Origin: Cyanidiococcus yangmingshanensis | Lineage: Eukaryota > Rhodophyta > Bangiophyceae > Cyanidiales > Cyanidiaceae | Direction of reading: 5' to 3' | Assembly: GCA_013995675.1 (NCBI GenBank) | Contig: VWRR01000020.1 | Coordinates: forward strand, 1-64,000 | DNA length: 64,000 nt | In this document: positions 10,392 to 53,112 of the stretch, in pieces | Position numbering within the stretch: position 1 is the first letter of the stretch | Layout: the number at the start of each line of letters is the position of its first letter | Program-made: the position numbers and the translations under genes | Notes under the pieces: model-generated | Seen by the model: the letters and a program-made list of their open reading frames with translations, nothing else | What the model was told of the DNA's origin: nothing | Databases searched by the model: none

Positions 10392-11905
10392 ATGACTACC
10401 ATCCATCGCTGTTCAGAACGGCTTTTCCAAACGGCTCTAGGCTTGCGCGTCGTTCAACAACGAAACGCAGTTCGGCACGCCTCGCGCACCCAGACGTTGC
10501 GTCACCAAAGTCTTCACTCGTCTCGGTACACAAAGCAACGAGTGCACGATCTTAGAAACAAACTGATGACTCGATCCAGAGGTGCAGACGGGACGAGGAG
10601 CAAGCGCCAGCGCGACGCTGCAGCCGAGGACTGGGACGAGCTCGCTGCAGCGCTCTGTCAACGTCGCGCGGCTTCAGTAACCAAGCGTCTCGTTTTCGCG
10701 TACACTTTGCTCGTCTTGGTGCTGGTCGGCTTTCCGCTGCTCTACACCAGGGCCGAGGACAACGGTCTGATTCCACCGGCGCCGCAACTCTTGTCTGCCT
10801 CCTCAGTTGGCGTCACCCTCACCAATATGCTGCTCGTCTCCAGCAGTGTCGTGTTTATCGGTGCACACGTGTCGGCGTCGCGGGCAAGTCATCGACAGTG
10901 GGTGCTCGAGCAGCTCCGCCAGCGCACTGGGAAACACGACGGTGACTCGGTCACGGCAGCACTCGCCGACCTGGAGCGAGACGTTATCGGACGAGGAGAC
11001 GCCCTTCGGTTTCCGCTGATCGCCTCGCTCGGCCTGCTCGGTCTCTTTCTGGCGATACGCTACCTCCCACCTCGTCTAGTGCAGCTGGCTGCTCGGTGCC
11101 TATGTGGCCATGGCAGCGTTGGTCTCCCTGACCAGCACCCTGTCGCCCCTGCTGGATATGATCGAGGCCCGTTTGCGACGTTCGCGTGCCAGGTCGCTCG
11201 GCATCCTCCTGTCGCGACGACTGTCCCTGTTCAGCGACACGCTTGCGTTCCATGGTCGAGACTTGGTCAGTATGACCGTGGCTGCCCCACTTTTGTACGC
11301 ATATCGCGGAGCGAATGGTCTCAGCGCAGCTGTGCTGAACAATGTGTTCGCAGCGAGCCTCGGTGTGGCAGGCATCGATCTCCTGGCCATTGGCGACTTT
11401 CAGACTGCGGTCGTGCTGCTGCTTGGTCTTTTCCTTCTACGACATATTCTGGGTATTCGGCAGTGAATCCATCTTTGGAGACAATGTGATGGTATCGGTG
11501 GCGCGAGGCATCGACGGGCCCTTCAAGTTCATCTTCTTCCGACCGCGAACTCACTTGGACGCAACCCGCGAAACGTCCATGCTTGGTCTCGGTGACCTAG
11601 TGATTCCTGGACTCTTTGTGGCGCTGATGCTCAGATTCGACAATCGTCGAGCACCCAGTTGTGGTCTAGCGACTGCTACACCGTACTTTTGGGCATCGTA
11701 CTTGGCGTACGCCCTCGGTATGGTGGCAACGTTTCTCGCAATGGCCGTCTTTCATGTGGCGCAACCGGCGCTGCTCTACCTGGTGCCGCTCTGTCTCGCG
11801 GCTCCTTTAACGCGCGCCTGGTTTGCAGGAGAGCTGCGTTCTCTCTGGCACTATCGCGAGCCGGACCTGGACTCGAAACAGGCGTCTGTTTCACGCTCCA
11901 ACTAG
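10392..11905 (+). CDS. SPP: Signal peptide peptidase (presenilin-type aspartyl protease)
   Basis: Intramembrane aspartyl protease of the ER that cleaves leftover signal peptides. All diagnostic motifs are present: a FYD/YD.FWVFG motif at about 11435-11460, GLGD followed by LVIPG at about 11587-11610, and QPALLYLVP at about 11761-11790. The match to human HM13 runs from RFPLIASLGLLGL onward. They lie in three different frames. Reading continues only with a +1 shift near 11088 (QL to LLGAYVAM) and another near 11437 (LGLFL to YDIFWVFG); both junctions align with the family without gap. The ATG at 10392 gives about 58 basic, Ser/Arg-rich residues before a second ATG at 10566; the latter is closer to the usual start, or the extension could be a presequence. 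Two changes of frame could mean assembly errors, real frameshifting or a pseudogene; the intact motifs argue against decay. Confidence 0.88.
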
Positions 11906-12974
11906 GGTTCTGGTCTCGGAGAGTACTTGCAGAACGCGACCTGCAGACAGGTACATAGGTGTGAATATGTTGGTAGGCAAACATACAGAACAAAGTCTAC
12001 GTTGCACTACTAGAGGTATAGACGGGCAACGTGCTGAATCTATATCGTCGCTGGCGCTACGTTCATGGACGAAAAAGACGGGATGAACAATACGAAAACT
12101 AGAATAGAACGAACATTGACGAGAATGGATATGCGCTTTGTATTCCCGCACAATGACGACCAGAGAATCATAGAGTAGAGATGAGTCAGCGCTTTCTCTA
12201 CGAACTAGAAAGGAGATGCCACCACCGACTGACTTCATGAGCCGCTCATGACGCTGCCGAGACAGCGGTAAAACGTAGACACACGAAGCTCCTATAGCGT
12301 ATCCGAACGAGTCCGGACATGGCGACTGCCAGTGCTGATACAACTTTGGTGTTCACACCAGCGGTTATTTTCGTTGAGCCTGCTTACCGGCACGAAGTAT
12401 CCTAATCGGCCCATCGTTTCTTGACTTGAACTGCGCTTACGACCAAGTACGCTGCTGGGTCATGGTCCCAATATGGAAACCATCGAGCAACCTCGCGTTT
12501 TCCAGAGAGCCAAGTCCTATTCTAGCTCAGCAACCCGCTTCGATCACAACCTCAGTCTGCGAGTACGAACGACTGAAAAAAGCTGCACAGTCTACGCTTG
12601 CTGCTACGCTTGCTGCTACGCTTGCTGCTACGCTTGCTTCAAAGTCTCAGACTCGCGTCGATCGAAAACCGTCCTAGGAACGTGCAGAGACACTGTGCCG
12701 CCCTTCAGCTGCCTGGAATACTCCAGTTCTCACTCGGAGCGACGAGGGAGTGAGCGCCAGACGTTCATGGACCGACCTTGTCTGCTTATCAGGAGAGTCT
12801 GGTCGGCGAACCCAGCGTTTACGCAGCGCGTCGCGTCCCAACACCTGCCGCAGCAGTATCATTCCAAGACCTTGACAAGACCCATACCTGGACTCGAGAC
12901 TCGTCCACAGCGTCAGCCTGCCCCGACCAAACACCAGCGTATGCTTATAGTTGCCTTATAACCTCCCGCTTATT
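11906..12974. other. Convergent intergenic region
   Basis: About 1.07 kb between the ends of the signal peptide peptidase and SF3B1 genes. It contains a 12-base tandem repeat (GCTGCTACGCTT, about four copies) at about 12597-12640. The open frames across it have no recognisable features. Confidence 0.6.
12597..12640. repeat. 12-base minisatellite
   Basis: Four near-identical copies of a GCTGCTACGCTT unit in tandem, ending with a diverged copy. It sits in the space between convergent genes, so it affects no recognised protein. Confidence 0.7.
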
Positions 12975-15842
12975 TCACAAACAGGCTTCTGGGCATTCCG
13001 GCCCGGCCAAAGCAAAAAGACAACTCGAGCTGCCGCTCATGCCGCCAAAATAATCCCCGAGCCAACGTTGCACTGGCCAGTAGAGGCCACGCACCGCCTT
13101 GGCGGGATGAAACAAACCCTGGGCCAGGTACTGGTGAAGCACGCCGGCCCCCAACGCTACCCCCAAGGCCCGCACCGCAAACTCGACGGCATGAGTGAGA
13201 TGCGAGTCCGAGACCTCGGCACCCAAGGCAATGTAATTGGGCCAAACGTGATCCAGCAGGTGCACCAGAGCCTCCTCGTAGCCTTGATCAACCAGCGCCA
13301 GCGCGAAATGGCCAACAGTCTCGCAAGCCACCTGACGATGGGTCTCGTACCGCTCAACCAGCGCCGACTCGAGCAGACGCGTCACCGCATAGACCTGGAC
13401 CGGATCCCAGACTCGTTTCATGGCGCCTGTAAACGAGCACAAGAAACCAATGGCCTTGATCACGCCGGTCTGGACATGCTTGTCCTCCTCAGTGACGTAG
13501 GCATCCAGGAGGAGCGGTAGGACACTCCCCAAATCCTGTGCTGCGGCAATCGCGAGAGCCACCGCGGCAGCGATACGCATCGAGCGGTCCGACTGCTGCA
13601 GCACCGACAGGAGCGGCCCTACGAGCGTCTCGATCCGACCAAGCACGCGCGCTACCCAGCCATATGCCTCTACGGCTCGGTAGCGAACGCGACGACGCTG
13701 TGCTCCGAGCGTGTCGCGCATCTCGGGGGCCACTCGCAGCCACGCTGTATCCGGTATGCTGCGTCCAGCGTGGCGAGCAATCACCATGACGAGATACACT
13801 GCAGCTGCTTGGACCTCCTCCGCTGGATTGCGCAGCACGAGCGTCAGACGTGATAGGATCTCTGCAAACGGGACATGTCTCGGTTGCAGCTCGGTCGCCA
13901 ATGCATCCAGAATGGTCGCGAGCGCTTCCAGCAGACGAGCCAGGGCCTCGGGGTACACCTCGCTGTAGCAAGCGGCAAGCACGGTGCCCAGTCGTCCGAG
14001 CACCTCGACTTGTCCGAAACGCGACCATATGGGCACCAGCAGACTCACCAGTCGCGCAGCCTCTGTCCGTGTTGATCCATTGGGACTCTGCAGACGAGCC
14101 ATCGCGAGATGCCCTAAGGTTTCTAGCCACGGCACGAGACGTTCACCGAGGCTCTCTGCGATCGAAACAATGGTATGGTAGGGAGTCGGTGCAGGCGCCT
14201 GCAGCCACTGCAGCAAACCCTGCACCAGTCGCTGGTCGTCGGCCGGCGACAAGTCGTATCCACCATCGGTGGCCGCCAGAACGTGTCGAGTCGTCTCCAG
14301 GGCCAAGCTGCCGACCGCTGGCGAGACACTGGGGTCCGACAAACACCGCAGGGCCTGGTCTGTCAGGACGGCTGCAGCGCCTAGATCCTCGGCTAGGAGT
14401 GCGGCCACTCGCGCCAAGCGTCTTCGACCGCCGTGATGACTCGCGGTCTGCAGAACAGCACGCTCGGGCTTGATGAAACACATTTCATGAAACTCTGGCA
14501 AAACCTGGGACATGAGCAGCTCGGGCGGAAACTGGCCTAGTTCAAGCAGTTGCTCCAGAATGCGGACCGGACAAGTTGAGCGCATCGCTTGCATCGTCGG
14601 CGTCAAAAGCGAACAGGCTTGATAGGCTCGTTCGCGATCGTCCATCGATGAGATGATAGCCACCGCAGCAGCGAGAAACGCAGTGAGCGTGCGGTCTCGG
14701 TAGAGGCGTACGCCATCCCAGAGCGGGGCTCGAAGCGGCTCCAACAGCACCGCCTCCGACAGAGAAGCAGTCGCGGCGAGGGCAGAGACAGCGCGGGCAC
14801 CCGCGAGTTTCACGAGCGGCTCAGGGTCCACCAGGGCGCGCTGGGCCATACGCACAAGTGTTGGCAGGTGCGCTCGCACACTCGGCCCATCCATGAGCGC
14901 GATCGAGCAAAGTGCCAAGGCAGCTGTCTCGCGAGGCAACGGGCCGTATCGCTGCGAGCGTAGCATCGACTCTAGAAGCGCTTCGAGTGTGCCGAATCCC
15001 CAGATACATGCCAGCAGGGCAATGATGCGGGCGGAATGTTGTCGAACCTGGTTGTCAGGAGACTCGAACCACGGACGAATGGCCTGAATCATCACGGCAA
15101 GACCAGCATGTTCGCTCAATGTTTTGATGAATGCAATGCACGCTGGTGAGTGAATGTCCAAGGCGCGTTCATGAACGGTGTCTGCAGCGCTAGCAACCGC
15201 GGAGCGCTTAGCCGAGCGACTCGTGAAAGGTTCAGGGATTTTCGGGGCAGCATCCATACGTCCAAGGATGGCGACCTCCAGGAGCGCACTCGCGTATGGC
15301 TTGATCTGCTGACCTGCGGCAGCAACAAGTCGCGGCAATGCTCGTTCCAGCGCGAGCAGAGCGCTCGCTTTCCAATCATCATGCTGCCACAGGTCTATGA
15401 GTGCCCCGAAAACAGCGTCCGCTTGACGCTTGTGTTCAAGGCTGGTCGTCAGCACGCGTAGAGCCGCTTTACGCTCAGACGCATCGGCAGCGTTCTTGAA
15501 CTGCAGCAACGCTCGCAAGGTATGTTCGGGAGCCACGCCTTTTGAAAGAGCGCGTCTAGCGAAGGTTTCGTCTGTTGCCGTACGACACCACCCTCGTACC
15601 GCCTCCGGCAGTGCAGCTGTTTCTGCTGGCACTCTGCCTTCGCGTCCGTTTAGAGAGGCCAGAGCCTCCTGGCCGTTCTCTGGAAGGTCGTGATGGTCCC
15701 TCGACTCGGGCGCAAAACTTGTTGCTTCATCCCAGCGAGTGCGTTTCCGTGGCGGCGGCAGCAGCGGGGCCACTGTCTCCTCGGTCGCAACTGTTTCCGT
15801 ACAATGGTCTGCTTCAACGTTCGAAACGATACTTACGTTCAT
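12975..15842 (-). CDS. SF3B1: Splicing factor 3B subunit 1 (SF3b155)
   Basis: Scaffold of the SF3b complex in the U2 snRNP, which holds the branch-site duplex. The 955-residue product starts at ATG 15842 and has a UHM-ligand motif KRTRWDE at 33-39, the element that binds U2AF-like partners. From about residue 80 to the end it is HEAT repeats. The C-terminal part matches the human protein well: HVWPN, HQYLAQGLFHPAKAVR and GLYWPV correspond to NYVWPN, LQYCLQGLFHPARKVR and DVYWKI. It is shorter than the 1304-residue human protein, mainly through a reduced N-terminal ULM region and loss of the last ~40 residues. By alignment of ALVDPEPLVK (336-345) with human GLVDEQQKVR, the residue at the human K700 hotspot is leucine. 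A GTAAGT word directly after the second codon looks like a 5' splice site, but the frame stays open, so I treat it as chance. A second in-frame-independent ATG overlaps just upstream. Confidence 0.9.
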   Translation of the reverse strand: MNVSIVSNVEADHCTETVATEETVAPLLPPPRKRTRWDEATSFAPESRDHHDLPENGQEALASLNGREGRVPAETAALPEAVRGWCRTATDETFARRALSKGVAPEHTLRALLQFKNAADASERKAALRVLTTSLEHKRQADAVFGALIDLWQHDDWKASALLALERALPRLVAAAGQQIKPYASALLEVAILGRMDAAPKIPEPFTSRSAKRSAVASAADTVHERALDIHSPACIAFIKTLSEHAGLAVMIQAIRPWFESPDNQVRQHSARIIALLACIWGFGTLEALLESMLRSQRYGPLPRETAALALCSIALMDGPSVRAHLPTLVRMAQRALVDPEPLVKLAGARAVSALAATASLSEAVLLEPLRAPLWDGVRLYRDRTLTAFLAAAVAIISSMDDRERAYQACSLLTPTMQAMRSTCPVRILEQLLELGQFPPELLMSQVLPEFHEMCFIKPERAVLQTASHHGGRRRLARVAALLAEDLGAAAVLTDQALRCLSDPSVSPAVGSLALETTRHVLAATDGGYDLSPADDQRLVQGLLQWLQAPAPTPYHTIVSIAESLGERLVPWLETLGHLAMARLQSPNGSTRTEAARLVSLLVPIWSRFGQVEVLGRLGTVLAACYSEVYPEALARLLEALATILDALATELQPRHVPFAEILSRLTLVLRNPAEEVQAAAVYLVMVIARHAGRSIPDTAWLRVAPEMRDTLGAQRRRVRYRAVEAYGWVARVLGRIETLVGPLLSVLQQSDRSMRIAAAVALAIAAAQDLGSVLPLLLDAYVTEEDKHVQTGVIKAIGFLCSFTGAMKRVWDPVQVYAVTRLLESALVERYETHRQVACETVGHFALALVDQGYEEALVHLLDHVWPNYIALGAEVSDSHLTHAVEFAVRALGVALGAGVLHQYLAQGLFHPAKAVRGLYWPVQRWLGDYFGGMSGSSSCLFALAGPECPEACL

Positions 15843-19135: not shown

Positions 19136-19511
19136 AGTCGATCCAGCGGTCTTGCGACAAGGCGCAGTCTGGATAACCTGGAGACTTGTGCGGTCTTGAT
19201 GGGTGTCTCCTATCGTCGAGTCTCCTTGTTGTAGTGTGCACAAGGCGCCCCATACCAAGTCGCCAAAGCTGATCTTAACAGAAACGGCGACGAATTTATT
19301 GTTGAACCATAGCCGTGAATATGCAGCATCGGCGGATACGCGAAACACGTTCATTCCACTTGGTGCCTATCCGGTATCTAGGGACTCAGAAATGTCGCCT
19401 TTGGGGAACGTTTCGGACTCTACAAAGGTATTCTGCTCGGCGTAGAAGCCGTTTCACGCAAGACCAGCTGCGCAGTTGCGTTGATTCCCGCCCTACCAGC
19501 GATCGTCGAAC
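19136..19511. other. Short convergent intergenic region
   Basis: About 375 bases between the 3' ends of MPC1 (plus) and the aspartate/glutamate-type carrier (minus). No gene or structured element is seen. Confidence 0.6.
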
Positions 19512-20730
19512 TCAAGAACTGTCAGATGCCCACTCACCCACATCGAGTATCGGCGCTGCCTGATCTGCGGCTCCACTAGGTCCGAAGAATCTATGCCACC
19601 ATACCTGCAGCAGTTCATAAGCTAGAAGCGTGAGGCCAAACTGCGGGGCCGATCTCGCCATGCGCGGTCCAAACCCCTTCCATAAAGCCTTGCCTCCTTC
19701 CTCCGTATAAATGCGTCGCGCACAATCCCACATGCCCCGGTATGCTTGCGTCTGGTGCCCACGATGTGCTTGCATGGTTGTCTTGATCACATCGAAAGGC
19801 GTCGTGATTCCAGCAGCGACAGATCCGGCAACAATACCAGCCATGAGACTGCTTTGAAGATGAGACGTGCTGCCAGGTGTCGAGGTCGCTTTCGGGGACG
19901 CTAAGGGTCCCTCGGGACCCGATATCCCTTTTGTTGCCTCTGGAGCTGAGCGGGAGTTTGAAAATGCCAGCCATTCAGCTGACGAGGCAAACCCAGCCGG
20001 CAAAGTGTCACGCAACCGATAGTACAATGGAAAGAATATCGCAGCAAAGATACTGTCACGGGCCAAGCATGGCCCGCTCCCAGTGTAGAGACCTCGGAGG
20101 CCCAGCTCACGAATGACATCCATCATACCTTTCGGCTTGCTCACCGTCGCACCCGTCGTTGAAGCGATCTCTCGCTGCAGCGCCAGTTGAACCATGAGGA
20201 TCTCACCGACATTGGTGAAGATAACTTGGGAGGCACCACCACAGGCACCAGCGCCTATATCCACCAACCATTGTGCAGCTACCGGCGAGAGCAAACGGTG
20301 CTCGTCTCCGTTCAGTGCACGTCGCTCTAGGTCTCGCACAAATCGGCGCCAACGAGGCTCGGATAGCATCGTTCGTCGCCAACTTGATCGCTTTCTCGGG
20401 TGCTACGCCCAAGATTTGTGGTACAACTCCTTGAAAGAGGCCTGAGACTCCACGCATCCGAATAACCTGCCTGAAGCAGTCCCATGCGCCGAGGTAGCGG
20501 ACACTACCAGCGCCATCGAGTACTCGAACGCTGGTTCCTCCCCTCTGGTACTGCAACTGCATCTTCACAAAGTTGATCGGATACGTGAAGTATGCCCCAA
20601 TAGCGCCAGCAGCACCGCCCAGAAAAAAGTTCCGCAACGACTCCTTCAGCCAAGGAGCCGGAAACCCGCGACCAAGCGTCGTTTCTGAAGCCGGCGCTAA
20701 ACCCAGCACCCGACGGTCATCTGCCGCCAT
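19512..20730 (-). CDS. Mitochondrial aspartate/glutamate-type carrier (SLC25A12/13-like)
   Basis: Mitochondrial carrier family protein with three carrier repeats. The first has TYPINFVKMQLQYQ and GLFQGVVPQILGVAPEKAIKL, the second GGASQVIFTNVGEI and GLYTGSGPCLARD, the third TTPFDVIKTTMQ and ALWKGFGPRMARSAPQFGLT. VAPEKAIKL, SQVIFTN and PQFG are shared with aralar and citrin, so exchange of aspartate for glutamate is the likely role; other amino-acid carriers of the branch remain possible. The ATG near 20730 gives a short N-terminus without the four EF-hands of animal AGCs, as in plant and fungal relatives. The first repeat and the rest lie in different frames; a +1 shift between about 20390 and 20350, in the matrix loop after NDAIR, joins them. 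The loop at residues about 250-275 is enlarged with Pro/Ser/Gly. It converges on MPC1. Confidence 0.85.
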
Positions 20731-24765: not shown

Positions 24766-26038
24766 CTAATCGGGGATCGTCAACATCACCTTCACTGCAC
24801 CGTTCGCAGCAGTCCGTGCTGTTTCAAAAGCTGCCTGCAAACTAGACTCTTCTAGACCCAGAAAACGATGCGTAATCAACGGCTTGACATTGACTCGACC
24901 CGACGCCAGGAGCGCCAGACACGTCGGATACGTATTGCAATATCGAAATACGCCAACGATATCCACTTCTCGACTGGACGCTTCCACAAGCGGGACTCGC
25001 ATTTCAGCAGCGCCCATGCCCACAAGACAGATACGACCACCCGAGCGGACTATTCGTATCGCCAGGCGCATGGTACGCTTCGAGCCCAGCACAATCTAGG
25101 GCAATATCGGGCTCCTCCCGGCCAAACGCTTGCCTCACAACCAGTGCAGCATCCCCTTCGTCTAGGTCTCGCGTGTTCACGACCGCGTCAGCGCTGGCGT
25201 GGGCTCGTGCAAACGCCAGCCTCGTGTCATCGATATCGGTGACCACGACATAGGAGGCACCAAACGCCTTGGCCACCATGCAGCTCAGCAAGCCGATAGG
25301 TCCGGCGCCAAGTACCAGAACCAAAGAGCCTATCGCTGTTCCCGCACGACGATTGGCATGGACAGCGACACTCAACGGTTCACAGAGAGCGCCCTCCTCC
25401 AAGGATACCGACTCGGGTAGGCGATAGCACCAGGTGGCCGGGTGGCAGACGTAGCGAGCAAGCGCGCCATCCACAGGTGGTGTCGCAAAAAAGCGAATCT
25501 GCTGACACAGGTTGTAGCGACCTTGACGACACCGGTCACAGTGCAGACAGGGAATTCCGGGCTCCAGTGCGACGCGGTCCCCGACCTGGAGCGTCGTCAC
25601 ACCAGCGCCGAGCGCCTCGACAACGCCGGCCGACTCGTGTCCTATGACCATCGGGTCGTGGAGGTGGAACGGACCGCAACTTCCATGCCACCAGTAGTGT
25701 ACATCTGATCCACAGATGCCCACGTTGCGGACGTGGACCCGCACCTGGCCTGGTGCCGGAGCCGGCACGCTGCGCAGCAACACCCGAAGTTCGCGTGGCT
25801 GTACCAGGACACCACAAAGGTTGCTCTTCTCGATGGTCGCCGAATTCAGATCCGAGCTGTCTGTCTCTGTGTCCATCTCGTTCATCAATAGCGATCGATG
25901 GCAAGCACCGCTCGCTAAGGGCAACCTCGACTCGGTAGAGACCCCGACTTGTGCGTCGCGGAAACGTTCGCGATGCTGAGGCGGCGACCAGCTGCCGTCA
26001 TCTCCCTCTGGGACACGCGCTGTTGCAGCTGATGACAT
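24766..26038 (-). CDS. Sorbitol/xylitol dehydrogenase-type polyol dehydrogenase
   Basis: Zinc-dependent medium-chain dehydrogenase that oxidises polyols such as sorbitol or xylitol to ketoses with NAD. Seen in order: GICGSDVHYW (catalytic zinc Cys), GHESAGVV (zinc His-Glu), the structural zinc cluster CLHCDRCRQGRYNLC, and the nucleotide fold VLVLGAGPIGLL followed by VVTDIDDTRL, where the acidic residues favour NAD. The C-terminal part has RSGGRICLVGMG, VDIVGVFRYCNTYP and VNVKPLITHRF, close to mammalian SORD. The two parts lie in different frames: DCAGLEA is followed, after one extra base near 25075, by TMRLAIRIVRSGG, a gapless match to the family DCTGAEASIQ...RSGG. ATG 26038 gives ~50 extra residues; MNEMDTETD at about 25885 is a good alternative start. 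Exact substrate cannot be read from the sequence. Confidence 0.88.
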
Positions 26039-27707: not shown

Positions 27708-30313
27708 ATGGAGGACGCCCTCGGCCCGCTGCCTGCTGGTTGTTTGGGGCGCATCCTCTTACTAGACCCCGCTGCGGCTGATGTATTTGCGCTCGCCACC
27801 CGTGATGTACAGAACTGGCCAACAGAATGGGCAATTCTCTTCGTTGATATGCTCGCTCCCCGCTCGAGTCGTATGAATGCGCGCTCATGGCCAGTCTCAA
27901 GCCTGGAGAATGTGCAGGTCGTGCCGTTTCTGAGTGCCTCTCATACCCGAGCTCTTGGGTGGCTCCTGGAATGGCTCGCAGAGGCCGCAAGCAGCCTGCA
28001 TATCGACCGAGCTCCCAAAGACCAGTTAGGAACGGAACCAAAAGTGCAGATGCCAGTCATCTTAAATGCGGCCGAAAAACGCCATCGCTTGGTCTATGGT
28101 CCCTGGGTCTCGGAAAGCGGTCTGCGACGCCTCGCCCGAGCCGGCTGGTTAACCCATTTCAGCGTGGGCCTGCTTCCAGCGAGGTTCTATCCAGTCAACG
28201 AAACGCTATGGTCACTTGGGTGGCCTTTTGCTGGCCACGCGCTCCTCGTTCGCGGGCAACAGTACGATCTTACCGAGGCAATCATTCAAGCGTTGGAGTC
28301 ATTAGGCTACGAATGGGAACGGATCCGGGCCCTTGGGGCCTTGCTCTGAACAGCTTGCGGAGCGGCTTGCCTGCCGCTGCGACGACCAAGAATACGAATG
28401 CAACGCAGACTGCCCCAGAGATGGCGTCTCGGGATCGATTCGGGTTGTCGTCAACCGTGGGTTCTGTAGAACGTCATTCGCATGTCCTTGCTGCGCGCTC
28501 AGAGCAGGACCAAGAGCCTACTCTATTGACAGACATGAAAACCGCAACGGAAGCCGAAACGGAAGCCGAAACGGAAGCCGACACCCATAGATCGCGCTCA
28601 GGTCTATGGTCGACTGAGTCAAAGTCTGGCACAGCATCCGCTGAGCATCGCCCAGTCGAAACAACTGAAGAACCTTGTTTGTTTCAGGAGCCGTGGCAGC
28701 GGCTCGGCAACGATCACTGCGTCTGGCCGAGAGACCCTGATACGCCTGCCGACAATCCAGGTGTCGTTTTACTTCCGCAGGAGCCGGAGGCGATGTCGAC
28801 AGCGTCGGCAACCACAAGACGGCGCCCTCGAGCCAGGTTGGTACTCCTTGATCGCTGGCTGGATCCGATCACGCCGCTTGTAACACCAGTCACCATCCAT
28901 GGATTGGAATACGAACGCGGTCATGCTCCCTGCTGGCAGCGCTGGAACTGGACCGAGCCGCGTCCAGCCGAGGAGGTCCAATCCTGGCTCCTTGAGCAGG
29001 AACGGAAAACATCGGCTTGCTCGATCTTGCAAATGGAATCGACAGGGAAACGCCTTTCGGAGGCGGAACAAGCAAAACTCCATCAACGCATACAGACCAT
29101 CTGCCAAGAGCCGTTCTTCAAAGCAACATCCGACATCGGAGCGTGGGCTCAAGCGCTCAAGCGCTTCTCAGACGCGAGACCCGACCCCAACGCAGCCGAT
29201 ATGGCCCAGGTCGCTGACTACGTTCGTGCACTGCAACGTCATCAGGCGGAGCAGCGTCTGGTCTCAGAGTTGCTCCTGCGCGCTCAACAGTTGAGCGCAG
29301 ACACCTTCGACCACGTGTATTTCCGTGAACTCTTGGCGCTCGAACGTGAGCTCCTGCGCGGTGAGGCAGAGCGTCGGATCGGTACCGAGACGTTCGCAAA
29401 ACGTCTCGAACAGATACTCGCGGCTGTGGTTGTTGCCCCTTCAGGAAGCTGGCTAGGGGATCGTAGTCTATTCTGGCGTCTGATTGTGCTCCATGGTTTC
29501 TGTACTGGATCCGATGACTTTCTGGAGCGGCACACGAGCCTCTTCCATATCGCTGCCTGTTGTTATGGGATCGATCGATTACGCAGCGACTGGAGAGCGC
29601 TTGTTGAATCCGACCTGGTGGCTCAGATCACGCGCAAAATACGCGGCACTCGACATGGGGTCGGCTTGCTGGCACCTGCAAACTTTGACTGGCCTCTTGC
29701 TCGTGACGCGCTGCAGTTGAATCATGTCGACTCGAATGTTACGGATGCGTACGCCGGCTATTTACCGCTGAGTGCTGCACTTGCAGTCCTCGCGTGTGAC
29801 GGGAAACGCTCGCCCTGGCAGTTTCCAACGTCACCACTCAAACATGCTTCGCCTGGTGACGACAATAACACCGAGAATGAACCGCAGCAGGTGCAGACAT
29901 CATCAGCAGGAGAATTGAACCGCTCACTGCTCATTCTGCGTCAGACGCCGAATCTCTTGCGCCCCATTCAACCTCGCCATTGGCACCACGGTCCGTTCCG
30001 AGAGCTGTGCCAACGAGCACTTGGTTGTCACAAGGGCCCAATGACCAGGGCGATATCAATGCCTCATTCGGAGGAAACGCTGAGTCTCACGCCGGTCGGA
30101 AAGCGAGAGAACGCGACTCCTGAATGGATTCTAGTCATTGGCGGCTGCTCGCCAGTCGAGGCCGAGTGCCTCGCCTCTGCTGTCGCTCAGAGCAGAGGCG
30201 CTTCCTGTCCAGTGCAGGTCCTGACCACAGGGGTACATTCGAGTCGCGAGTGGCTGCTGCTGACCCTGCACGGCGACGATTCTACATTGTGGGACCGACA
30301 AAGCGTCTCGTAA
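27708..30313 (+). CDS. VPS33: VPS33, Sec1/Munc18-type vacuolar sorting protein
   Basis: SM protein of the HOPS/CORVET tethering complexes that templates SNARE pairing at late endosome and vacuole. The N-terminal part (27708-28337) has GLLPARFYPVNETLWSLGWP and the helix ending in YEWERIRALG, aligning to the human VPS33 segment LGSFIHREEYSLDLIPFD and ALYGTIPQIFGKG. The SM core has ARLVLLDRWLDPITPLVTP (about 28834-28890), equal to the VPS33 LLLLDRNVDLLTPLATQ motif. The end, ILVIGGCSPVEAECLASA, equals FVVGGVTYAEIAALRF. The gene uses three frames: a +1 shift at about 28338 leads from RALG to PCSEQLAERLAC, which fits the family GKGECARQVANM, and another +1 follows somewhere in 28380-28600, a low-complexity region with a 12-base repeat coding for Thr-Glu-Ala-Glu. 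The acidic insert of ~130 residues before the core is lineage-specific. Confidence 0.82.
28538..28580. repeat. 12-base coding repeat in VPS33
   Basis: About three and a half copies of GGAAGCCGAAAC in tandem. In the VPS33 frame it gives repeated Thr-Glu-Ala-Glu. One of the two frame changes of this gene lies in or near it. Confidence 0.75.
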
Positions 30314-35038: not shown

Positions 35039-37768
35039 TCACCTGTCCACGACAGTGTTCGTGATACCGGTTTCATCCAAGGTATCACAGGTCGATCCGG
35101 AGACCCATTCGGGGAAGACGCGTCTGTACAGGCTCAGACATACCGTGTCACTGTGTAGAATCGTACCATCGAATGTCGCTTTCATCGCTCCATGAGTTCC
35201 GAGTGACTCCTCGATACGCCCGAGACGCCCATGCTTCGTCCAGAGTGGCACGTTCTTGTAATGTTTCACATCCTCGGGATCGAAAAACATATATCGGATC
35301 GTCGCACGCGTCTTATGGGCTCGATAGGGAACGCCGGTGAGCACCACCCGTTTCAACACAATTCGGTCTGGGTTGGCCCCGACGACAGAGCCAGTTGCCA
35401 CGAGCAGCGGCCTTGTTGACACCTGGGTTGGTCCTTGAATCAAGTCCGGTATTAGAGTGCTGCTGCTGGGTAGCGTGACCAGGACTGGCGCAGGTGGATA
35501 GGTCACTGGTGCGTAGAGCGACGCCATGCTCCAACGCGCTGGCAGCAAATAGCGCTCGTAACGATGCTTATCACAAGTGGAGTCTGGCTCGGAGAAAATG
35601 GGCCGCGCCAGCAGACGTCGAAACCCGATATGGAACGTAAGTAGCTGTTTGGAGCGCACAAGCTGATCAGATGGAATCGACGCGGTCACTGCCACAGCAT
35701 CTAGATTTGGACACACTTCGCTGAACGAGGCAGTGCATCACCGTGGGAAGATGCTCGTAACGAAGCAAGCTGGTCGCGATGAGCGGACCTGTCCAGCCTC
35801 GCATGCGCTGTGCAACTGAAACTGGCACAGATTTCAAAAGGAACGCAATGTAGGTGTGCGGCTTCACCGGTGACAAAGCTGCCTCTTGATGAGCATTGCG
35901 GACTGCTCGGCGAAAGTGCTCGAATTGCACGACACGAGCATAGGCCGGCGGCAAGGATGTGTTCGAATCCCAAGGCGTCTTCCGATACGATGGAAGAGGT
36001 CGGTAGTGAGCGAATCTTTCCCGCACTGGACAATCGGTTGGAGTATCGACTTCGTCCGGAAACATAAGTTCGTCTCGCTCGATCTCTTTGACCTCTTCGA
36101 GCGCGCCTTGGGAGCGTGCTTGTGGAGCATCAACTTCCGAATCCGATCCAGACATCGACGCACTCGATGCTCGATGCAGCACTCGGTCCTTCGAAAGCGG
36201 CATGGCGCCTTGCCGTGTGCTCGCGGTCGACACATTCCGAGTCACTGTCGACGAAGGAAGCGTGTGAACCCGTCTCGTCTGGATCGTCTGTGTCGGATTC
36301 GTCGTCCTCCATATACGCACTGCGTCTGGACATTGGTGATGAGCGAGTGTCGTCCCAGGAAGTAGCCTGCTTATGAGGGTGCTCTAGGGATGAGCGCTGG
36401 GATCCCGCAGTCCTCGTAACTCATTTCGTTGAGCGCACGCTCATGAATTCCTGCCCTGTTCGGTGGCAACGCCCATGGGCAATGCGCTAACGTAGCCTCC
36501 TCCGCTGCTTCGCCAACCAGAATATCCTCGTTGGGCGATCGCGAACCGAAACTTGGCGTTTGCTTCGTTTGGGCGTTTGCGCTAGTCTGTACTGGCCCCA
36601 TGCCGTTGTCAGACACGTCATCCCGCCAGTCCGCTGGAACCGTATCCTCTATCTGCATGCCCGATACCATCGCGTATGCCTCCGATGGATCATCGGCCTC
36701 ATCTAGAACAAGCTCCGAAGCTTCGATTCCGTCCATTCGGACCGAATTGTTTCTCCTAGTGCCAAATAATGGACCCAAAAAGGGTACTTGAGCTCGCTCT
36801 ATTCGCGACACCACAAATGTACCCATACCAGTTAGATGAACCAGACGACGGGCATTGGTGCCTGCCCCACGAAGCCAGCCAATGATTCGAACCGAGCATT
36901 CCGTTGAGTCAGAATCCGACTCTATGAATACCTGTTCGACAAGCATGTATGGTCGATCAGCACGCCAACGGATGACTCGCCTCTTCGCGTGCTCCAGTTG
37001 TCGACGAATCTGCTCAGCATCGCCACGACTGCGCATGATTCGCACCTGAATAGGCTTCTCTTTCGCATCCAGGATAGAGGCTGCTGCCAGACGATCGTTG
37101 CAACAGGCCAGCCACGGACGTGATGCAGGGGAGTCCTCCACCGAGCCGAGTGCCAGCGAACCCCCCGATAAATACGACTCCGAGTGGTTGGACTCTAGCA
37201 CCATTGCGTGGTCACTTGTCGCCGTCATGGAACGCACCAGTGGTGGCACTGCAACAGCAATACAGCTCATGAGACCCTGTGCACGGATGGAGTCAAGCCA
37301 AGCCTCGGCAGTCTCCTCGACGGCTCGCTGCTCGACATAGAGCAAAAGCCCGAGATCAGCAACTTTCGCGGCATCAAGCACCGCTTCGAAAGGCGCTTTG
37401 GCATCCAAACACATCCAATGCATTCGACGAATCTCGTTGTTGCGATCCTTCGCCACAGAGTTCACCAGCCGGTACCACGAAGAAGTCAAGTCGTTGCGAG
37501 GGCCAGCGACGCCACTGGAAGCGTTTTCACTGGATCCTCTTTTTCCTATATCGGCAGACACCTCATACCCCCATTGACAGAGACAGTACTCGAGCGCAAG
37601 CTGGAGGTCCAAACCCTCGGTCATACCCAGTACCAGCACCAGGGTTGGACAAGCTTCATTCGGGTCTTGCGTCGCGCCAGCTTGAGTGTGCTTGTTCCGC
37701 TCCTGACGCTGTTTTCGGGCCACGATCCGTCGATGCACGGCTACTCGCTGTCGCTTTCTCCCGACCAT
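35039..37768 (-). CDS. TSR1: TSR1, 40S ribosome maturation factor
   Basis: GTPase-like factor, inactive as a GTPase in known members, that caps late 40S precursors in the cytoplasm. Domain II appears as RPYMLVEQVFIESDSDS, VRIIGWLRGAGTNARRLVHLTGMG. The family centre MFPDEVDTPTDCPVRERFAHYR and TPWDSNTSLPPAYARVVQFEHF follows. The C-terminal barrel has HIGFRRLLARPIFSE, VLKRVVLTGVPYRAHK, IRYMFFDPEDVKHYK, GRIEESLGTHGAMKATFDG and LYRRVFPEW, all near-identical to human TSR1. These blocks use four successive frame segments joined by +1 shifts: near 36380-36400 (into the acidic AYMEDDESDTDDPDETGS), between 36200 and 36140 (into the FPDEVDTP segment) and near 35715. The ATG at 37768 opens on a basic stretch typical of the N-terminus; the frame stays open to 37939 without another ATG, so the true start is uncertain. 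Confidence 0.85.
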
Positions 37769-42062: not shown

Positions 42063-44800
42063 GGCCAGTCGGTCAAAGGGTGTGCTCGAGCTTTCGAGTC
42101 CCGCAAACCTCCGTGACGCCAGTACGTGTGGCGCAGTCCCTCAGAACAGAATTGCTAGTTCCTTCAATCAAATGGTCGCGATGTCGACAATCGAGGACTC
42201 GCTCGACACCCTGTTCTTATGCAACGACTGAGCAGCTTTCGCGCTGTACGGGTGCGATGGAGCGAGCCTCTCAGCCGTTGCCATCATCATGTGCGCTTTG
42301 TACCAAGAATGGTAAGAAGCGGGTTTGGACGCCAAGGCCCTGCCCCCTTGCAGATCACCGCCTCTATCTGCAGAATGATCAATCGACATGTTCAGATTCC
42401 TTGAGGAAAAAGCATAAAATAGTTCAGAGAGCAACACATCATTATTGGAATGACAGAGACAGGGCCGCGGTGGATGTCTCCGCCTCTATCTGTCGATCGA
42501 TCTATCGGGTTATTCGTATGCCCTGAGCATGAGTATCTCCATGATCTGGGGAATGGCTGTTATCGTCGTTGGAAGGAGAAACGAGTGCGTGTCATTGAAT
42601 CCCGTTCTACAACCGGGCGCAAGACAGCGCTGGTTTCGATCTGCAGGATGCTTGAGCAGTACAGATGACGCATCGGGTTTCAGCGCTTTCTCGATCACGT
42701 GAGATGACCAGAAGCTCAGGGACCAGTTGCAAGACTGCAAACACGTCTCCCGGACAGGGTTCGTTGGCGGTTCTGGCCAGGGGCATCCATGGGACGCTCA
42801 TTTCTGAAACATACCGTTGAAGACATGGAATCAGAGACGGGGAAAGTGATCTTAGCTTCCGCAGCAGACAGTATCCTTTCCATTGACCCGCAACCGCTTG
42901 GAGACGAAACGCGACGACAGCACCGAGAACGAATGTTTTTGGAAAAGTTTGCACGACGGTAAACGCATCGCGGTCGGTTTCGTTCCGATCCGGGGCTGCA
43001 CAAACGTGGTCACGTTATCGTACGCTCGACATCTGGATACGAGTCGACCAGCGGAGCGATTGAGATGTCTCCAGAACAGCGTCGGCATCCATGCTTCTCA
43101 TTCATATAGATTGTATTTCGTAGATCTCGACAACAATAAGGGCAATGGAACGTTATTGCAGCGACCCTAATGATTGGCGAGCGTGTAGAGCACTCGCCGT
43201 GTCCCAACAATAGGCAAAAGCACTCGCTACAAAACCTTTCATTCCTTTTCCGACTGCTTCTCGAGCGCTTCGAATCAAGGTAGTGCCTGGCATGCCTTAT
43301 ATTCAGGTGAAGGGCCATGTGCTCGTCGCCTATGGTAACAACGCAGACTTCGAACAAGACCGCGTAGCAGCGCGAACAGATCTTTATCGACTTGGAGACG
43401 GAAACGAAGCATAAAGAGCCTCACATATCATCGAAACGAACAGCAAATCAAAATAAACTGATTGTATCGAGCGCTGTACCTAGTGCGCAGGTATCCAACG
43501 AGCGACGCCTCGCGGGGGCTGAACGCACCAACCATTCCGCAGGTAGGGCGGTCTGAATCACGGGGTTCTACCTCCGAGGTCACGGACGAGAACATCATCA
43601 GAGACCTTCATGAGGCGCCGAACGAAACCTCAGTGCCAGAAAGGCCACTAGCGAGCGCTGGTACGGCGACAGACCTCAATTCGCCTGAAATGAATAAAAC
43701 GCTCCGATCTTTCCGAGAACTTGATGCGACACGCGCTCTACGATCGAAAGCGACTAGAACAGTCATTGAGGCTCGACTACCTTCCAGCGCACAACTCGCG
43801 AACCAAACGACCCAGAGAATGAAGCCACGCACGCTTCTTCAGTGCTCGCGTTCTTGGTCAACACGAACGAGCACGAAAGCAGTCCGTTGGCCTAGACCAA
43901 ACCATCCCGTGCTCAGTCAGCGATAACACCCACGCTGTCTCCTGTTCTGAATAACTTGCTTCAGAACAAGTCTAGTCCAATCAGTCTCCACCCTTGAAAG
44001 CACCTGCCCATGAAGCAGGTCGCTGACATTGCACAAGTGCACTTAGAACAGACGTCTGTGTACCCGCTGAACAGGTTCGTGAGCGATGCAGTTTGGCCGC
44101 ACGCCCCGACGAAGGCACCAGCCTGCTGTGAGCGCTCTAGCGTCTGTTCGGGTCAGCGGACGCTCAACGTTCCTCGACTCGTTCACTTGCTCACGATTGG
44201 TACGGGTGCGTGATCTTCCTGGACTGTGCGAAGAAACAACATTGAAATTCCTGGGCTTGATGGGTCGCTCGGGGGCCCCGCGAGCGCCAACTCGAGTGAA
44301 CGGGCACCGCTGCGGAGGCACAACAGTCCGCTGGGGCGGTCTCAACTGCAGGACCCAGGCGTGCCACTTCACGGAGGCTCGAGAAGACAGGCAACACTGC
44401 TGGCGAAAGCGTGAGTACTCGGAAGCAGGCCGCCGGTCACGTCGGAGCGAGCACCGACTTGGCGTTCTCGAGTGAAGAGGCGTCTGTACCAGCCGATGCT
44501 GGTCGCTCTTTCTCTGCGGACGGGCCCGGGCCGCCTCGCTCTGCACGAGTGCCGAGTGCTCGTTCGGATAGCGTCTCTCAGGGAAAACCTGTGCAACTTG
44601 ACTCGGAAACGGTGGAGAACCCTGACCCTCTGACTGGTCGGGTTGGCGACGAGGTCACCTCACAACGCCCTCGTTTTGATGCGGGTCCACGACAAGTACG
44701 CAAACGGGTCGTGCGGCGTGGTCAAGATGAAATAGCAGTCTCGAGCGCTTCAGTTGCTGGTGTACCTGGACAGGCCTCTGGGGTAGGCCGCGCTCGTTCT
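42063..44800. other. Divergent gene-poor region of about 2.7 kb
   Basis: Between divergent GPAT9 and BRF1. The part 42063-44080 shows only short featureless frames. From 44411 the BRF1 frame is open upstream of the chosen ATG (see that entry), starting with a GTGAGT word that resembles a 5' splice site. No other gene is supported. Confidence 0.45.
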
Positions 44801-48132: not shown

Positions 48133-50436
48133 TCAGTGACGTGAGAAATACGCGGCAACTGTTGCGATGATGTGGAGCGCTGCGATGATGTGGAGCGCTG
48201 CGTTGCTGCCTGGTGACAGTGCGGACAGGTTTTCCAGTCGGGCGGCAGTCGTCGAACTCGTTCGGCAGGTGACGATTTCCTCAACTCGTGCAACCGCGTC
48301 TTCATCGGTATCGTCGTCGTCGTCGTCGTCGTCGTCATGGGTCGAAGGCGAGCCCGTCGACAGCGTTCCTCGATCGTCTTCGGTGAGTGCCGAGCCGAGA
48401 GCGCCGACTTCGGCCTCATCGAATAAGGGTCGCGCCTCGTCAACGGTACGGACCGACTCGATACTCGTCCGATTTTCGGTAACGATGCCGCCGTTATTCA
48501 TGGGCTCTGGCGGGCGCGTCTTGGGCGCATCACCTGCACTGGCAATCGTTGCCAGCGCAGCCAAAAGCTGCTCTTTCACTGGCCCTCGAATGACCCCATC
48601 GTGTGGCCATTCTACATCGAATTCGACAAAGAGGTCCCCAAAATCGAGGGGCGCGTTTGGACAACGCCGCCGTTTGGGCATACCTTTCCCGGGAATACGC
48701 TTCACCGTGCCAGGGCGAGTCACGCAACCATCGTGGCTCTGTACCATGATGGTGCGTCCGTTCAATAGCTTGAGGGTGAACGAGTACCCGCAGAGCGCTT
48801 CCGCCAGCGTGAGCTTCTTGCGCATGCGCAGGTCGTCCCCAACACGAGCGAAACGTGAGTGCTGTTTTTCACGCAACACAAAAATCACGGATCCAACGTC
48901 TGCACCCGGTGATGTAGCGTTGGCATAGCCGGGGAACTCGACGCGATCACCGTCGCGCATACCTGGCTCAACCTGGATCGTGAGTACGCATTCCTCTCGA
49001 CAGCGCGTGCCATCCAGTCCAAAGCCCATTCGCTCAATCGCCACACGCAACACTCGACCAAGGTAGAAATCGGCGAGATCCAAGGCCAGCTCATGGACCG
49101 CATTCGGTGAGGGCAATGTCCCGCCAGCCTGTAATACTGGTCTAGAGAGCGCCTCTCCTGTATCGGGCTTGATCCGTTCCGCATTGGCGTGCGCGCCTTG
49201 ACACCAATTCGTTGCCAGGTTCTCTGGTTGCGACACGGAGCACGTCAGATTATCACCAGGGATACGATTCAGGCATCGGTCGAGCCCACGTCTTTCTGCA
49301 ATTTCCGCGCTGCAACCGTTGTCCCACCAGCCGTAAGCAGGCCCACCGGCGCCCGTGAAACCATACGAGGCGGACACGGGATTCGCTGCCTCCTCTCGTC
49401 TCCCGGACTGCGCGCCCACTCCGGGATCATTCCGATTCCGTGACGTGCGCAGGATGCACTCCCGCAGCTGTCGCGTTTTCAGACTTTTGCAGCGGATGAA
49501 CTTACTCAACTGAATGATCATATTCAACAGACGTCGATCTCGCACACATCGATACCCAAAGGTATCGTAGATACGACGTCGCTCCGAGTCACCGAGCGTC
49601 TCAAACGCCAGTTGTATCTCCTGCGTTCGAGCAACATACGCTTCTCGCACCGACTCCAGGTACTCGAGCGTACACTGTTGTGACCCCTCGTGATCGGTGA
49701 CGCCCTCACGACTTCGACGATACGCGTTGATGAGTGCCGTCACTCGGTCGGGATGGTACTTCCATATTTCACGAAGGTATGCATTACGCAGCTGACGCGG
49801 ATTGCTAAAATCAGGGGGGATCCCCAGAACCTGATAGAGTCGATCGCGATCGTCCGTCAACGGTGAGGGCATCTGCAGTTGCTCAATCGAGTTCAGCAGG
49901 GTGCTCAACCGTTGCGACCCTTCCCATTCCCCTGATGGCGGCCGTCCACCATCCAGTGACACGGCCGCTCTGGAACCACCCTCACCACCGGAAACAGAGG
50001 AAAACTGCGAACATGACGTCGAACTTGGTTGCAGAACCGACGTCTTGTCTGCAACTGGCGGGGTCGCTCGTCCGCCGGCCGCCGTCTCGCCAGTCGCAAG
50101 CCAGGGCCCCTGGTCACCACCAAGCTGCGCCTCCAGACTGCGCAGCTCAGGATAGCGCAGACACGCACGAGACGCCAGCGCCCCGTCCTTCGCCCCAGCA
50201 TCCGCGGCGCCGAGCGCCAGCGACCGCCCGCATGTCTTGAACTGTTGCGCAGCCGTTGGACGAAGTGCATGACGCATGGCCCGAGCCGGACTCGCACCCT
50301 GACCAAGTCGTTCCTCACTCGCGCTCTTTGCTAACCGCTTCGTGCCGTCCACAGAGGAAGCCGCAGCCGGCTGCCGCAACGACCCCGTGTCACTGCCCTC
50401 GAACTCCATCGCCTCCCCAGCACCGGTCGGCATCAT
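48133..50436 (-). CDS. Large DnaJ (Hsp40) co-chaperone with two C-terminal domains
   Basis: Stimulates an Hsp70 ATPase and hands over substrates. The ATG at 50436 (MMPTGAGEAMEF) is chosen because the frame has no earlier ATG. Residues 1-195 are low complexity. The J domain spans about 198-294: YQVLGIPPDF, YHPDR (HPD at 228-230), then QLAFETLGDSERRRIYDTFG. Between HPD and helix III lies an insert of about 35 residues, unusual for a J domain. The peptide-binding CTD modules follow at about 420-635 (ECVLTIQVEPGMRDGDRVEF, FVLREKQHSRFARVGDDL, LTLAEALCGYSFTL, RPGTVKRIPGKGMP, GDLFVEFDVEWP), closest in pattern to DNAJB11/ERdj3 and other class B proteins. No zinc-finger CXXCXGXG repeats and no signal peptide are visible, so the compartment is unclear. 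An Asp run coded by a trinucleotide repeat lies near the C-terminus. 767 residues. Confidence 0.85.
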   Translation of the reverse strand: MMPTGAGEAMEFEGSDTGSLRQPAAASSVDGTKRLAKSASEERLGQGASPARAMRHALRPTAAQQFKTCGRSLALGAADAGAKDGALASRACLRYPELRSLEAQLGGDQGPWLATGETAAGGRATPPVADKTSVLQPSSTSCSQFSSVSGGEGGSRAAVSLDGGRPPSGEWEGSQRLSTLLNSIEQLQMPSPLTDDRDRLYQVLGIPPDFSNPRQLRNAYLREIWKYHPDRVTALINAYRRSREGVTDHEGSQQCTLEYLESVREAYVARTQEIQLAFETLGDSERRRIYDTFGYRCVRDRRLLNMIIQLSKFIRCKSLKTRQLRECILRTSRNRNDPGVGAQSGRREEAANPVSASYGFTGAGGPAYGWWDNGCSAEIAERRGLDRCLNRIPGDNLTCSVSQPENLATNWCQGAHANAERIKPDTGEALSRPVLQAGGTLPSPNAVHELALDLADFYLGRVLRVAIERMGFGLDGTRCREECVLTIQVEPGMRDGDRVEFPGYANATSPGADVGSVIFVLREKQHSRFARVGDDLRMRKKLTLAEALCGYSFTLKLLNGRTIMVQSHDGCVTRPGTVKRIPGKGMPKRRRCPNAPLDFGDLFVEFDVEWPHDGVIRGPVKEQLLAALATIASAGDAPKTRPPEPMNNGGIVTENRTSIESVRTVDEARPLFDEAEVGALGSALTEDDRGTLSTGSPSTHDDDDDDDDDTDEDAVARVEEIVTCRTSSTTAARLENLSALSPGSNAALHIIAALHIIATVAAYFSRH
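48308..48339. repeat. Trinucleotide (TCG)n repeat coding for poly-Asp
   Basis: About ten TCG/GTC units in tandem, read on the minus strand as nine consecutive Asp codons within the DnaJ gene. A typical slippage-prone coding microsatellite. Confidence 0.8.
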
Positions 50437-51250
50437 GGTCCAACCGTTCCGTCTCAAAACAAATACATCCAAACACAAACCCAATCTCTATCAAGAAAAA
50501 AAGAACGTCCCTGAATCAAAACACGCAGAAAAACCAATCCAGAACGTAGTTCGTCACGGTCGTCTACAGCAAGCGTATGCGTATACCGCCGCCGCGCCAG
50601 ATGCGTGTCCAGTGCACCGCTTCGATGCGTGTCGTTTTGCGCGGGCCACCAGCGTCTGGAAGGCATCGATGAGACGTCCTGGGGCGCGCATGTGGCGACG
50701 ACGACGACGCGAACGAACAGAACTGCGTGCCGCCGGCATGCAGCGATGACGTCGGCGCGGTGCGTGTTCCCAATAGGGACAAGATCGCCAAGGCCATGCC
50801 GATGCCGATCGCGCGATCAATCGCGGTGTTGTTCTCATCGGGTTGTGCAGCAGGTGTCGTCGGCCACCGCCATGCGGAGGGGTGTCCGTTTTGGGTGTGT
50901 CTGTACGCTCTCGCCGATCTCCGGCTGGCGAGCTGGCGTGCTCGCGCTGCGGCGATGGTGGGTGTGCCCTCGAAGGGCGGATGCATCAGAGGCGGCAACC
51001 GTGTGCAGTGACGTCCATCAAAGCTGTCGATCGACTGCTTGTCATGTCGTTTCGTTTGACTCGAGAGGTCCATGATGAATGGAGAAAAATACGTATGTTT
51101 TCGTTGAGTGATTCTCGAGCTGGGAGGCTGCAGTTGGCGTCTGGTGTACGGTGCGGTGGCGCTGCTGGCCGGCACCGTGCTGGGAGCACTGGACAGGACC
51201 AGGTAGCAAGACCCGGTATTCTACTCAGGCCACTTCTCAGCACAGACCAT
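50437..51250. other. Divergent region, DnaJ and PPR genes
   Basis: About 810 bases. The plus-strand frame of the PPR protein is open back to 50843 with further ATGs (for example at about 51044 and 51095), so part of this may be coding. The segment near 50450-50530 is A rich in an otherwise GC-rich region and is a likely promoter area for the DnaJ gene. Confidence 0.45.
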
Positions 51251-53112
51251 ATGCTCATGTGGTTGTTGGCGCACCCTTCTTGTGCTTTGCAGCGCGATAA
51301 AAAGTGCTGTGGACGATGGTGGTGGCGAGCAACTGGGGCGCCGAAGCCGGTGTGGCGCAGGTCGCGGACTGTGCTGCGAATGCGGGTCGATGCCCCTCCA
51401 GCACCAGCCGAGCCTACTCCAGACTGGGAACGTCGATGGTCGATCAGTCCATCGGATCGGGGCGCTGGGACGTTCCTGGGCACGAGCGGTGACGCGAGCG
51501 AGGCACGGGCGCGCATTCTCGAGCTCGCGAACGCTGGCGAGCCAGAGCGCGCACTGGCCTGGTGTGCGCAACTGCACAGTGTTGGTGTCGCTGTAGACAC
51601 CTACGCGTACACGGCCATACTGAATGCTTATCGGCAAAAGCACGATGCGGACGGGGTGATGCATGTCTTGGCAACCATGGCGACGCGAGGTGTGCCCGCG
51701 AGCGACGTCACCTCTCTGCTCGCGTTTCGCGTGCTGCGCGATACTCGTCGTGCTGGCTGGATTCTAGACGCGATTCGTTTGGTAGAAAAGTCTGGTGGCA
51801 CCATCGGCTTGCGCAGTTGGGGCAATGCACTCTCGTGTCTTGCCGAGGCGTTGCGTTCCCTGCCTCGCCACCATATGCAGATCGAAGAGTACACGCGGAC
51901 TGGCTGGGAGGTTCTCTCACAGATGCTACGTATGCGCCAACATCGACGCCCCAACGCATACGTATTCAACTCGTGGATGGCGATGTATGCGTCAAGAGGC
52001 GATTGGGACGGAGCGCTGACAGTTTTCGGGGCCATGGCAGCGGGCGCTCGTGTCCAACCGGATGTCGTGAGCTATAACATCCTGTTGGAGTGTCTCGCTC
52101 GTCGTTTTGGGCAAGTCAAACAGTCTGGGGAAGCGCGTTCTATATCAGAAACTGGAGCGTGCAATCATCGAATCAATGCGTTCTCATGGTATTGAGCCGG
52201 ACGCCCGCTACACTCTCTGCACAGTTGCGCTTGGTGCAAGACGACCCGCAAACGATTCGGACCATTGAACGACGGGCGCTCTGGTACGGCGTTCGGATTG
52301 ATTCGTTCTATGTGAATGCGCTTATTGATGCCTATGCACGACTCGGTGATACTGCTGCGGCCGCGGCAGTGCTGGAGCGTCTCACTGTCCATCGAGATCA
52401 GTGTAGAGCAGCCGAGGCCGAAGGGCTCGTCACCGCCGAAACCGCAGCTTGTCCATCCGCGCTGCCGCCTATTACCTCGTACACCTTGAACGGCGTACTC
52501 AAAGCGTGCGCTCGAACGGGCGATGCCGAGCGGGCTTGGAAACTTCTCCAGGATATGGACACCCGTTACGGTATTCCGCCTGATGCGATCTCTTTCACCT
52601 GCGCGATTACAGCAGCCGCCAAGTCGTACGAGACTCGCGTCGCTCGCCAGATGTATGCCATGGCACTGGAGCGCTTACGCGATACCGCAAATGTTCGCTT
52701 GGCCACGGCCGCAATCCTGGCCGAGCGTGACGACACCGAACAAGCCATACGAGTGTTTGAGCGTCTGCTCAAGGATGCAGAAAAGTGTCAGCGTGGCGTT
52801 GCATCGGCTAGGACCACATCGCTGACCATGCCGATGGACTTTCGAATGCCAGTCCAGGCCCTGGTGCGCGTCTGTGGCCGCGCTCGAGCGCCTGCGAGAG
52901 CTCGCGAAATTGTACTCGCGGTGAAGAGAAGAAGCCTTTGCCTAATCGATTTGAGTTATTATCGATCTTTCATGAAAGGAGTTCAAGAGTCGCAAGAGCG
53001 GCGCCAAACTCAGGGCATTTACGATCTGACGCCACTGTCGCCGCTCTCTGCACCCTCGCTGTACCTGCTGAAACTGGAATGCACAGCTCCAGGGGATACA
53101 ACCGACTCTTGA
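51251..53112 (+). CDS. Pentatricopeptide repeat (PPR) protein, organellar
   Basis: Helical-repeat RNA-binding protein, expected to act on organelle transcripts. PPR units are seen as VDTYAYTAILNAYRQKHDADGV, PNAYVFNSWMAMYASRGDWDGA, QPDVVSYNILLECLARRFGQ, IDSFYVNALIDAYARLGD, ITSYTLNGVLKACARTGDAERA and PPDAISFTCAITAAAKSYE, each a 35-residue class. The first block (to about 52130), a middle block (LYQKLERAIIESMRSHGIEPDARYTL, about 52130-52236) and the last block lie in three frames; one extra base near 52130 and another near 52236 join them so that repeat spacing is kept. ATG 51251 starts MLMWLLAHPSC followed by Arg-rich sequence, which suits a transit peptide, but earlier in-frame ATGs exist. No DYW or SMR domain follows, so this is a P-class protein. 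Target RNA unknown. Confidence 0.8.

Follow-up and report, generated by a model that had tools for sequence, protein, structure and literature searches.

Several conserved genes near one end of a contig of the red alga Cyanidiococcus yangmingshanensis cannot be read in a single frame, which raises the question of whether the breaks belong to the living cell or to its published sequence. An earlier note on this DNA had described eleven frame changes, all of them +1, in six genes, and had left residual one-base insertions and genuine +1 frameshifting as the two readings. The window analysed here comprises bases 1-64,000 of contig C13 (302,643 bases), which belongs to a genome assembly of 12,072,675 bases in 20 contigs. 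Telomere-like CCCCCATTC repeats open the window; they are consistent with the telomere AATGGGGGG that is listed for the species (PMC13353863) and with a chromosome end. According to the first table of the same paper, two assemblies of the species have been published, 8.1.23 F7 (12.0 Mb, 20 contigs) and NIES-4659 Ha1 (12.1 Mb, 20 contigs), and both sequenced strains are described there as haploid. The accessions are JANCYV000000000 (reads in BioProject PRJNA851236) for the former and PRJDB19695 for the latter. The genome papers put the number of introns in the species at about 35-36 (PMC9812998, PMC13353863).

Six split genes in the window

A scan of 30 open frames yielded 18 genes with Pfam matches in the window, six of which are split between frames, namely those for signal peptide peptidase (SPP), a mitochondrial carrier, a polyol dehydrogenase, VPS33, TSR1 and a PPR protein (Table 1). 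These are the six genes that had been named as requiring a frame change, and this part of the claim was confirmed throughout. The number and sign of the changes stood in part: seven of the eleven are firm +1 changes (three in TSR1, two in VPS33, the second in SPP and the one in the dehydrogenase), those in the carrier and at the first SPP site are probable but unpinned, and the two in the PPR gene are ambiguous.

Table 1. Frame changes in the six split genes (positions in the window)
Feature	Position	Strand	Placement and basis
SPP, first +1	11082..11200	+	From the frame of 10377 into the next frame; interval only; three-frame view and coding signal
SPP, second +1	11433..11437	+	At GLFFYD/GLFLYD, upstream of the catalytic YD motif
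Mitochondrial carrier, +1	20206..20402	-	Interval with both frames open
Polyol (sorbitol-type) dehydrogenase, +1	25074..25087	-	One change
VPS33, first +1	28330..28338	+	CCCTTGGGG stretch, where relatives have RALGPCSE; alignment to P0011 and P0012, single-base scoring
VPS33, second +1	28390..28490	+	Variable linker, rough placement
TSR1, first +1	36373..36423	-	Acidic linker, rough placement; alignment to P0001 and P0002, frame view
TSR1, second +1	36180..36245	-	Acidic linker, rough placement; alignment to P0001 and P0002
TSR1, third +1	35701..35718	-	Alignment to P0001 and P0002, single-base scoring
PPR protein, two +1 or one -1	52069..52265	+	Pfam scores and codon model disagree

In the SPP gene, the coding segment 10605-11198 lies in the first frame. 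The N-terminal half has no Pfam match, so the first change, which is probably +1, rests on the coding signal and frame arithmetic. At the second site, Pfam A22B matches from 11339 onward and the joined peptide aligns across to SPPL2A; scoring of all single-base removals placed the surplus base at 11435-11437 and inspection by eye at 11433-11434. The mitochondrial carrier has Mito_carr matches in both frames, and frame arithmetic gives one +1, a probable though unpinned change; the left part only of its joined peptide aligned to ADP/ATP carriers. The joined dehydrogenase aligns smoothly to ketose reductase 1e3j and sorbitol dehydrogenase 3qe3, with the best single-base removals at 25074-25080 and a placement by eye in the GGG run at 25085-25087.

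For VPS33 and TSR1, intact single-frame relatives were available. Alignment of VPS33 to P0011 (861 residues, 51% identity) and to P0012 (937 residues, 41%) yielded two +1 changes with each, the second near 28489 with the former and near 28399 with the latter. A first codon-model pass had called one deletion, and thus a single -1, in this gene; that path was rejected because the relatives match the middle frame (GPCSE), in which GPCSEQLAERLA stands opposite GPCSERLAERLA of P0011. The frameshift-aware alignment of TSR1 to P0001 (1002 residues, 55% identity) and P0002 (915 residues, 62% in the best stretch) gave three +1 changes with each relative, even though a single -1 replacing the first two would have been penalised only half as heavily; in the codon model, the path through the middle frame outscores that with the single -1 by about 9 nats. 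Positions are approximate for the first two changes in TSR1 and the second in VPS33, where conservation of the linker sequence is poor. A possible fourth change close to the end of TSR1 was rejected, since the C-terminal ending is unshifted in the relatives. No second TSR1 gene was found, the other match being only a 32%-identical stretch on C8, and a 20-kb DNA query for an intact second copy elsewhere returned only a subtelomeric duplication, in which window 1615-6224 is 90% identical to C9:6327-10942. In the PPR gene, two +1 changes score 43.6 bits against 34.6 bits with the PPR_2 profile, whereas the codon model favours one -1 at 52180, and the sign is ambiguous.

The remaining twelve genes lie in single open frames and encode a Kelch protein, SF3B1, a serine acetyltransferase, an M20 peptidase, a polyketide-cyclase-like protein, a GPAT9-like acyltransferase, BRF1, a DnaJ protein, a Myb protein, two cupins and a bromodomain protein. 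Their one-frame status derives from open frames and Pfam matches, not from an alignment of each to a relative; residues 238-926 of SF3B1 align unbroken to human SF3B1 596-1270. The earlier note had spoken of more than a dozen other genes without a frame change. At two settings, the codon model called an insertion at 44,301, exactly where the BRF1 open frame begins. A candidate break in the DnaJ gene (48,136-50,487) was rejected, as the J domain resumes in the same frame past a long insert. In the Kelch gene (window 6467-9505, minus strand), one open frame contains two trefoil (P-type) domains in addition to the Kelch repeats, a combination unexpected in an alga, and the cupin genes are near each other on the minus strand (window 56937-57650 and 59486-60181).

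Frame changes elsewhere in the genome

A codon-model (HMM) scan of 364 kb (C13:1-264,000, C1:300,001-350,000 and C6:200,001-250,000) ended with calls of 25 insertions and 2 deletions. Without two insertion calls that have an empty right-hand segment, the ratio is 23 to 2 (two-sided p ~2e-5). The raw counts shift with the settings, from 18/4 at first and from 39/4 to 25/2 over five rounds, and to 27/2 or 30/4 at laxer penalties. When changes were planted as a control, the model recovered 57 of 60 insertions and 54 of 56 deletions and never mistook the sign; as this control ran on the training sequence, it overstates sensitivity, and the symmetry of the signs is what counts. The final pass detected only the dehydrogenase and the PPR gene among the six split genes of the window, and it overlooked both the condensin-2 G2 +1 and the C6 kinase step discussed below. 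Outside the window, 16 of the 22 insertion calls are without homology confirmation and may include introns. The confirmed calls are in GalE, thiolase, Hsp90, an ABC1 kinase, in which both halves match and the position is unpinned, and a SERCA-type ATPase (two sites). For the dehydrogenase, Hsp90, thiolase, GalE and SERCA, the joined peptides pass smoothly through the junction when aligned to solved structures. The ABC1 kinase-like domain is part of a stretch (C13:126,777-129,739; L007:2777-5739) in which it is followed by model-called frame changes and then by a beta-lactamase-like domain, either within one fusion or as a separate gene.

Seven families (PF00118, PF00069, PF00133, PF00012, PF00155, PF00501 and PF00227) were surveyed by coordinates, over 158 matched stretches with 110,631 bases. 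Of 39 adjacent pairs of stretches judged to belong to a single gene, 19 stay in frame, 17 shift by +1 and 3 by -1 or two +1. The +1 share is thus 17 of 20 steps (two-sided p 0.0026). A +1 step could equal two -1 steps; the two are told apart only when roughly one base is surplus, as in Hsp70 on C7, a chaperonin on C1, a kinase on C15 and the proteasome genes on C7 and C20. Introns may lie behind steps with a surplus of hundreds of bases, and PF00155 showed no frame step in 9 matches. By eye, the step in the C6 kinase is a +1 within a CTCTCTC stretch. Twenty steps in 110,631 aligned bases correspond to about 1.8e-4 per base (Q37), or one per 5.5 kb. Given this density, the eleven changes of the 64-kb window do not make it special.

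The opposite sign was found as well. A chaperonin gene has a -1 step at C1:208,356-208,359 with exactly one base missing, and condensin-2 G2 on C13, compared with the intact relatives P0014 and P0015, has a -1 at about 194,635, where the missing base falls in a CC-TTTT stretch, and a +1 near 193,235. A further +1/-1 pair at 193,418 and 193,368 is suggested by P0015 alone, without support from P0014. The NCBI protein for this gene (P0013) has 913 residues and ends just past the -1 site, whereas the relatives have 1399 and 1401. All firm sites in the window are +1, as had been claimed, but a common sign does not hold for the genome.

Two further observations were made during the survey. On contig C11, pairs of matches have identical scores (153,057-153,977 and 236,872-237,792; 100,714-102,219 on the minus and 186,417-187,922 on the plus strand), which suggests a large duplication; the open frames of the near-identical kinase copies span 1090 and 673 residues, and a frame break may be present in only one of them. 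A chaperonin gene at C18:203,671-205,608 (minus strand) is interrupted by 300 bases without a change of frame, perhaps an intron, and has stop codons inside the matches.

Sequence context and origin of the frame changes

Every single-base removal was scored at ten +1 sites for which a good reference was available. At six of these pinned sites the best removal hits a run of at least two identical bases, at four it does not; any of the four bases may be the surplus one, the contexts differ, and no shared sequence or slippery motif was found at the ten sites.

From these comparisons, we consider it highly probable that the frame changes reflect single-base errors left in the published consensus of a PacBio-based assembly of a haploid alga, with a base added in most cases and dropped in a minority. 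The actual genes would then be continuous and the extra base absent from the DNA of the cell; that the split genes are not a real biological feature is most likely. Ignoring one base restores the genes, and TSR1, VPS33 and condensin-2 G2 are in one frame in their relatives, the nearest of which are only 45-62% identical and none of the same species. The unbroken relatives, the absence of a motif, the distance of most sites from a stop codon, the roughly even density across several contigs and the real -1 sites outside the window favour assembly error over the biological reading. The changes resemble residual indels of long-read assemblies in that they are one-base events that split conserved genes, become visible against relatives, occur genome-wide regardless of gene function and in mixed contexts, and have both signs.

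Raw PacBio reads have been described with 12% insertions and 2% deletions (PMC3443046), but another study of raw CLR reads reported 2.9% insertions and 8.8% deletions (PMC5964698), and in a Nanopore example the residual errors were mainly deletions (PMC12007338); a bias towards insertions is thus not the rule across long-read assemblies. Unlike the published Nanopore indels, which are mostly missing bases, the changes described here are mostly surplus bases, and they persist in spite of stated short-read correction. Indeed, two points speak against assembly error: both published PacBio-based pipelines state Illumina correction with Pilon (PMC9812998, PMC13353863), and the BUSCO values reported for the 8.1.23 F7 protein set (92.4% complete, 4.3% fragmented) are better than a break in about one gene domain in eight suggests. 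Heterozygosity as the cause of failed polishing was dropped, as the strains are described as haploid.

Programmed +1 frameshifting in Euplotes takes place where a stop codon follows a slippery one. A programmed or tolerated +1 shift of the ribosome of this kind, with the extra base present in DNA and mRNA and skipped by the ribosome, would account for the strong +1 bias and for the many conserved genes concerned, but is very unlikely. With the stop-codon context determined for nine of the ten pinned sites, all but the condensin +1, a stop is the next first-frame codon at only two of ten, both after AAC (thiolase AAC TAG, second SERCA site AAC TGA). At the first SERCA site, TGA follows within about three codons, and at six sites (second SPP, dehydrogenase, Hsp90, GalE, first VPS33 and third TSR1) the first-frame stop lies several to more than 20 codons downstream. 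Together with the lack of a common motif, the unbroken relatives and the missing-base sites, which would have to be explained as well, these distances leave the frameshifting reading of the earlier note without support. A broader version, in which DNA and mRNA truly contain the surplus bases and a context-tolerant, stop-independent mechanism with +1 and rare -1 moves reads through them in hundreds to thousands of cases, is similarly improbable. Reading-frame transitions have been catalogued in prokaryotes with GeneTack, and conserved transitions were sought among them (PMC3711429). The present analysis shares the ab initio search for frame changes; in contrast to conserved transitions, two aligned relatives for each of three genes lack shifts at these sites. 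No paper on frameshifting in Cyanidiophyceae was found in the open-licence literature, and the word 'frameshift' is absent from the two genome papers (PMC9812998, PMC13353863).

Real inactivating mutations, from gene decay close to the end of a chromosome or from loss in this strain, would agree with the telomere-like repeats at the start of the window. We regard them as highly unlikely, as frame steps were found on nine of the 20 contigs (scan and survey combined) in unrelated families, far from the contig end and in housekeeping genes such as Hsp90, Hsp70, SERCA, chaperonin and proteasome genes; moreover, conservation persists downstream of the breaks, with 76% identity kept at the C-terminus of TSR1 in the downstream frame.

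RNA editing that removes one base could still yield intact proteins from broken DNA, but is hardly conceivable for surplus bases of all four kinds in varied contexts, since deletion editing is known only for U, and the -1 sites would require the addition of a base. Introns do occur in the species, and short spliceosomal ones may underlie unpinned calls and steps with hundreds of surplus bases, but as a general explanation they have a negligible probability, for at the pinned sites there is exactly one surplus base, no residue is lost and no removed stretch with splice signals is present. The earlier note had held that introns or -1 changes among the sites would refute a common sign; the pinned sites are not introns, and the firm -1 changes lie outside the window.

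Significance of the split genes

If the frame changes are residual assembly errors, the public assembly and its protein set carry truncated versions of conserved genes, for instance of condensin-2 G2, and with one step in roughly 5.5 kb of domain sequence, analyses of gene loss, gene families and selection could be affected. If, on the other hand, the biological reading were true, the split genes would represent a new decoding system in red algae.
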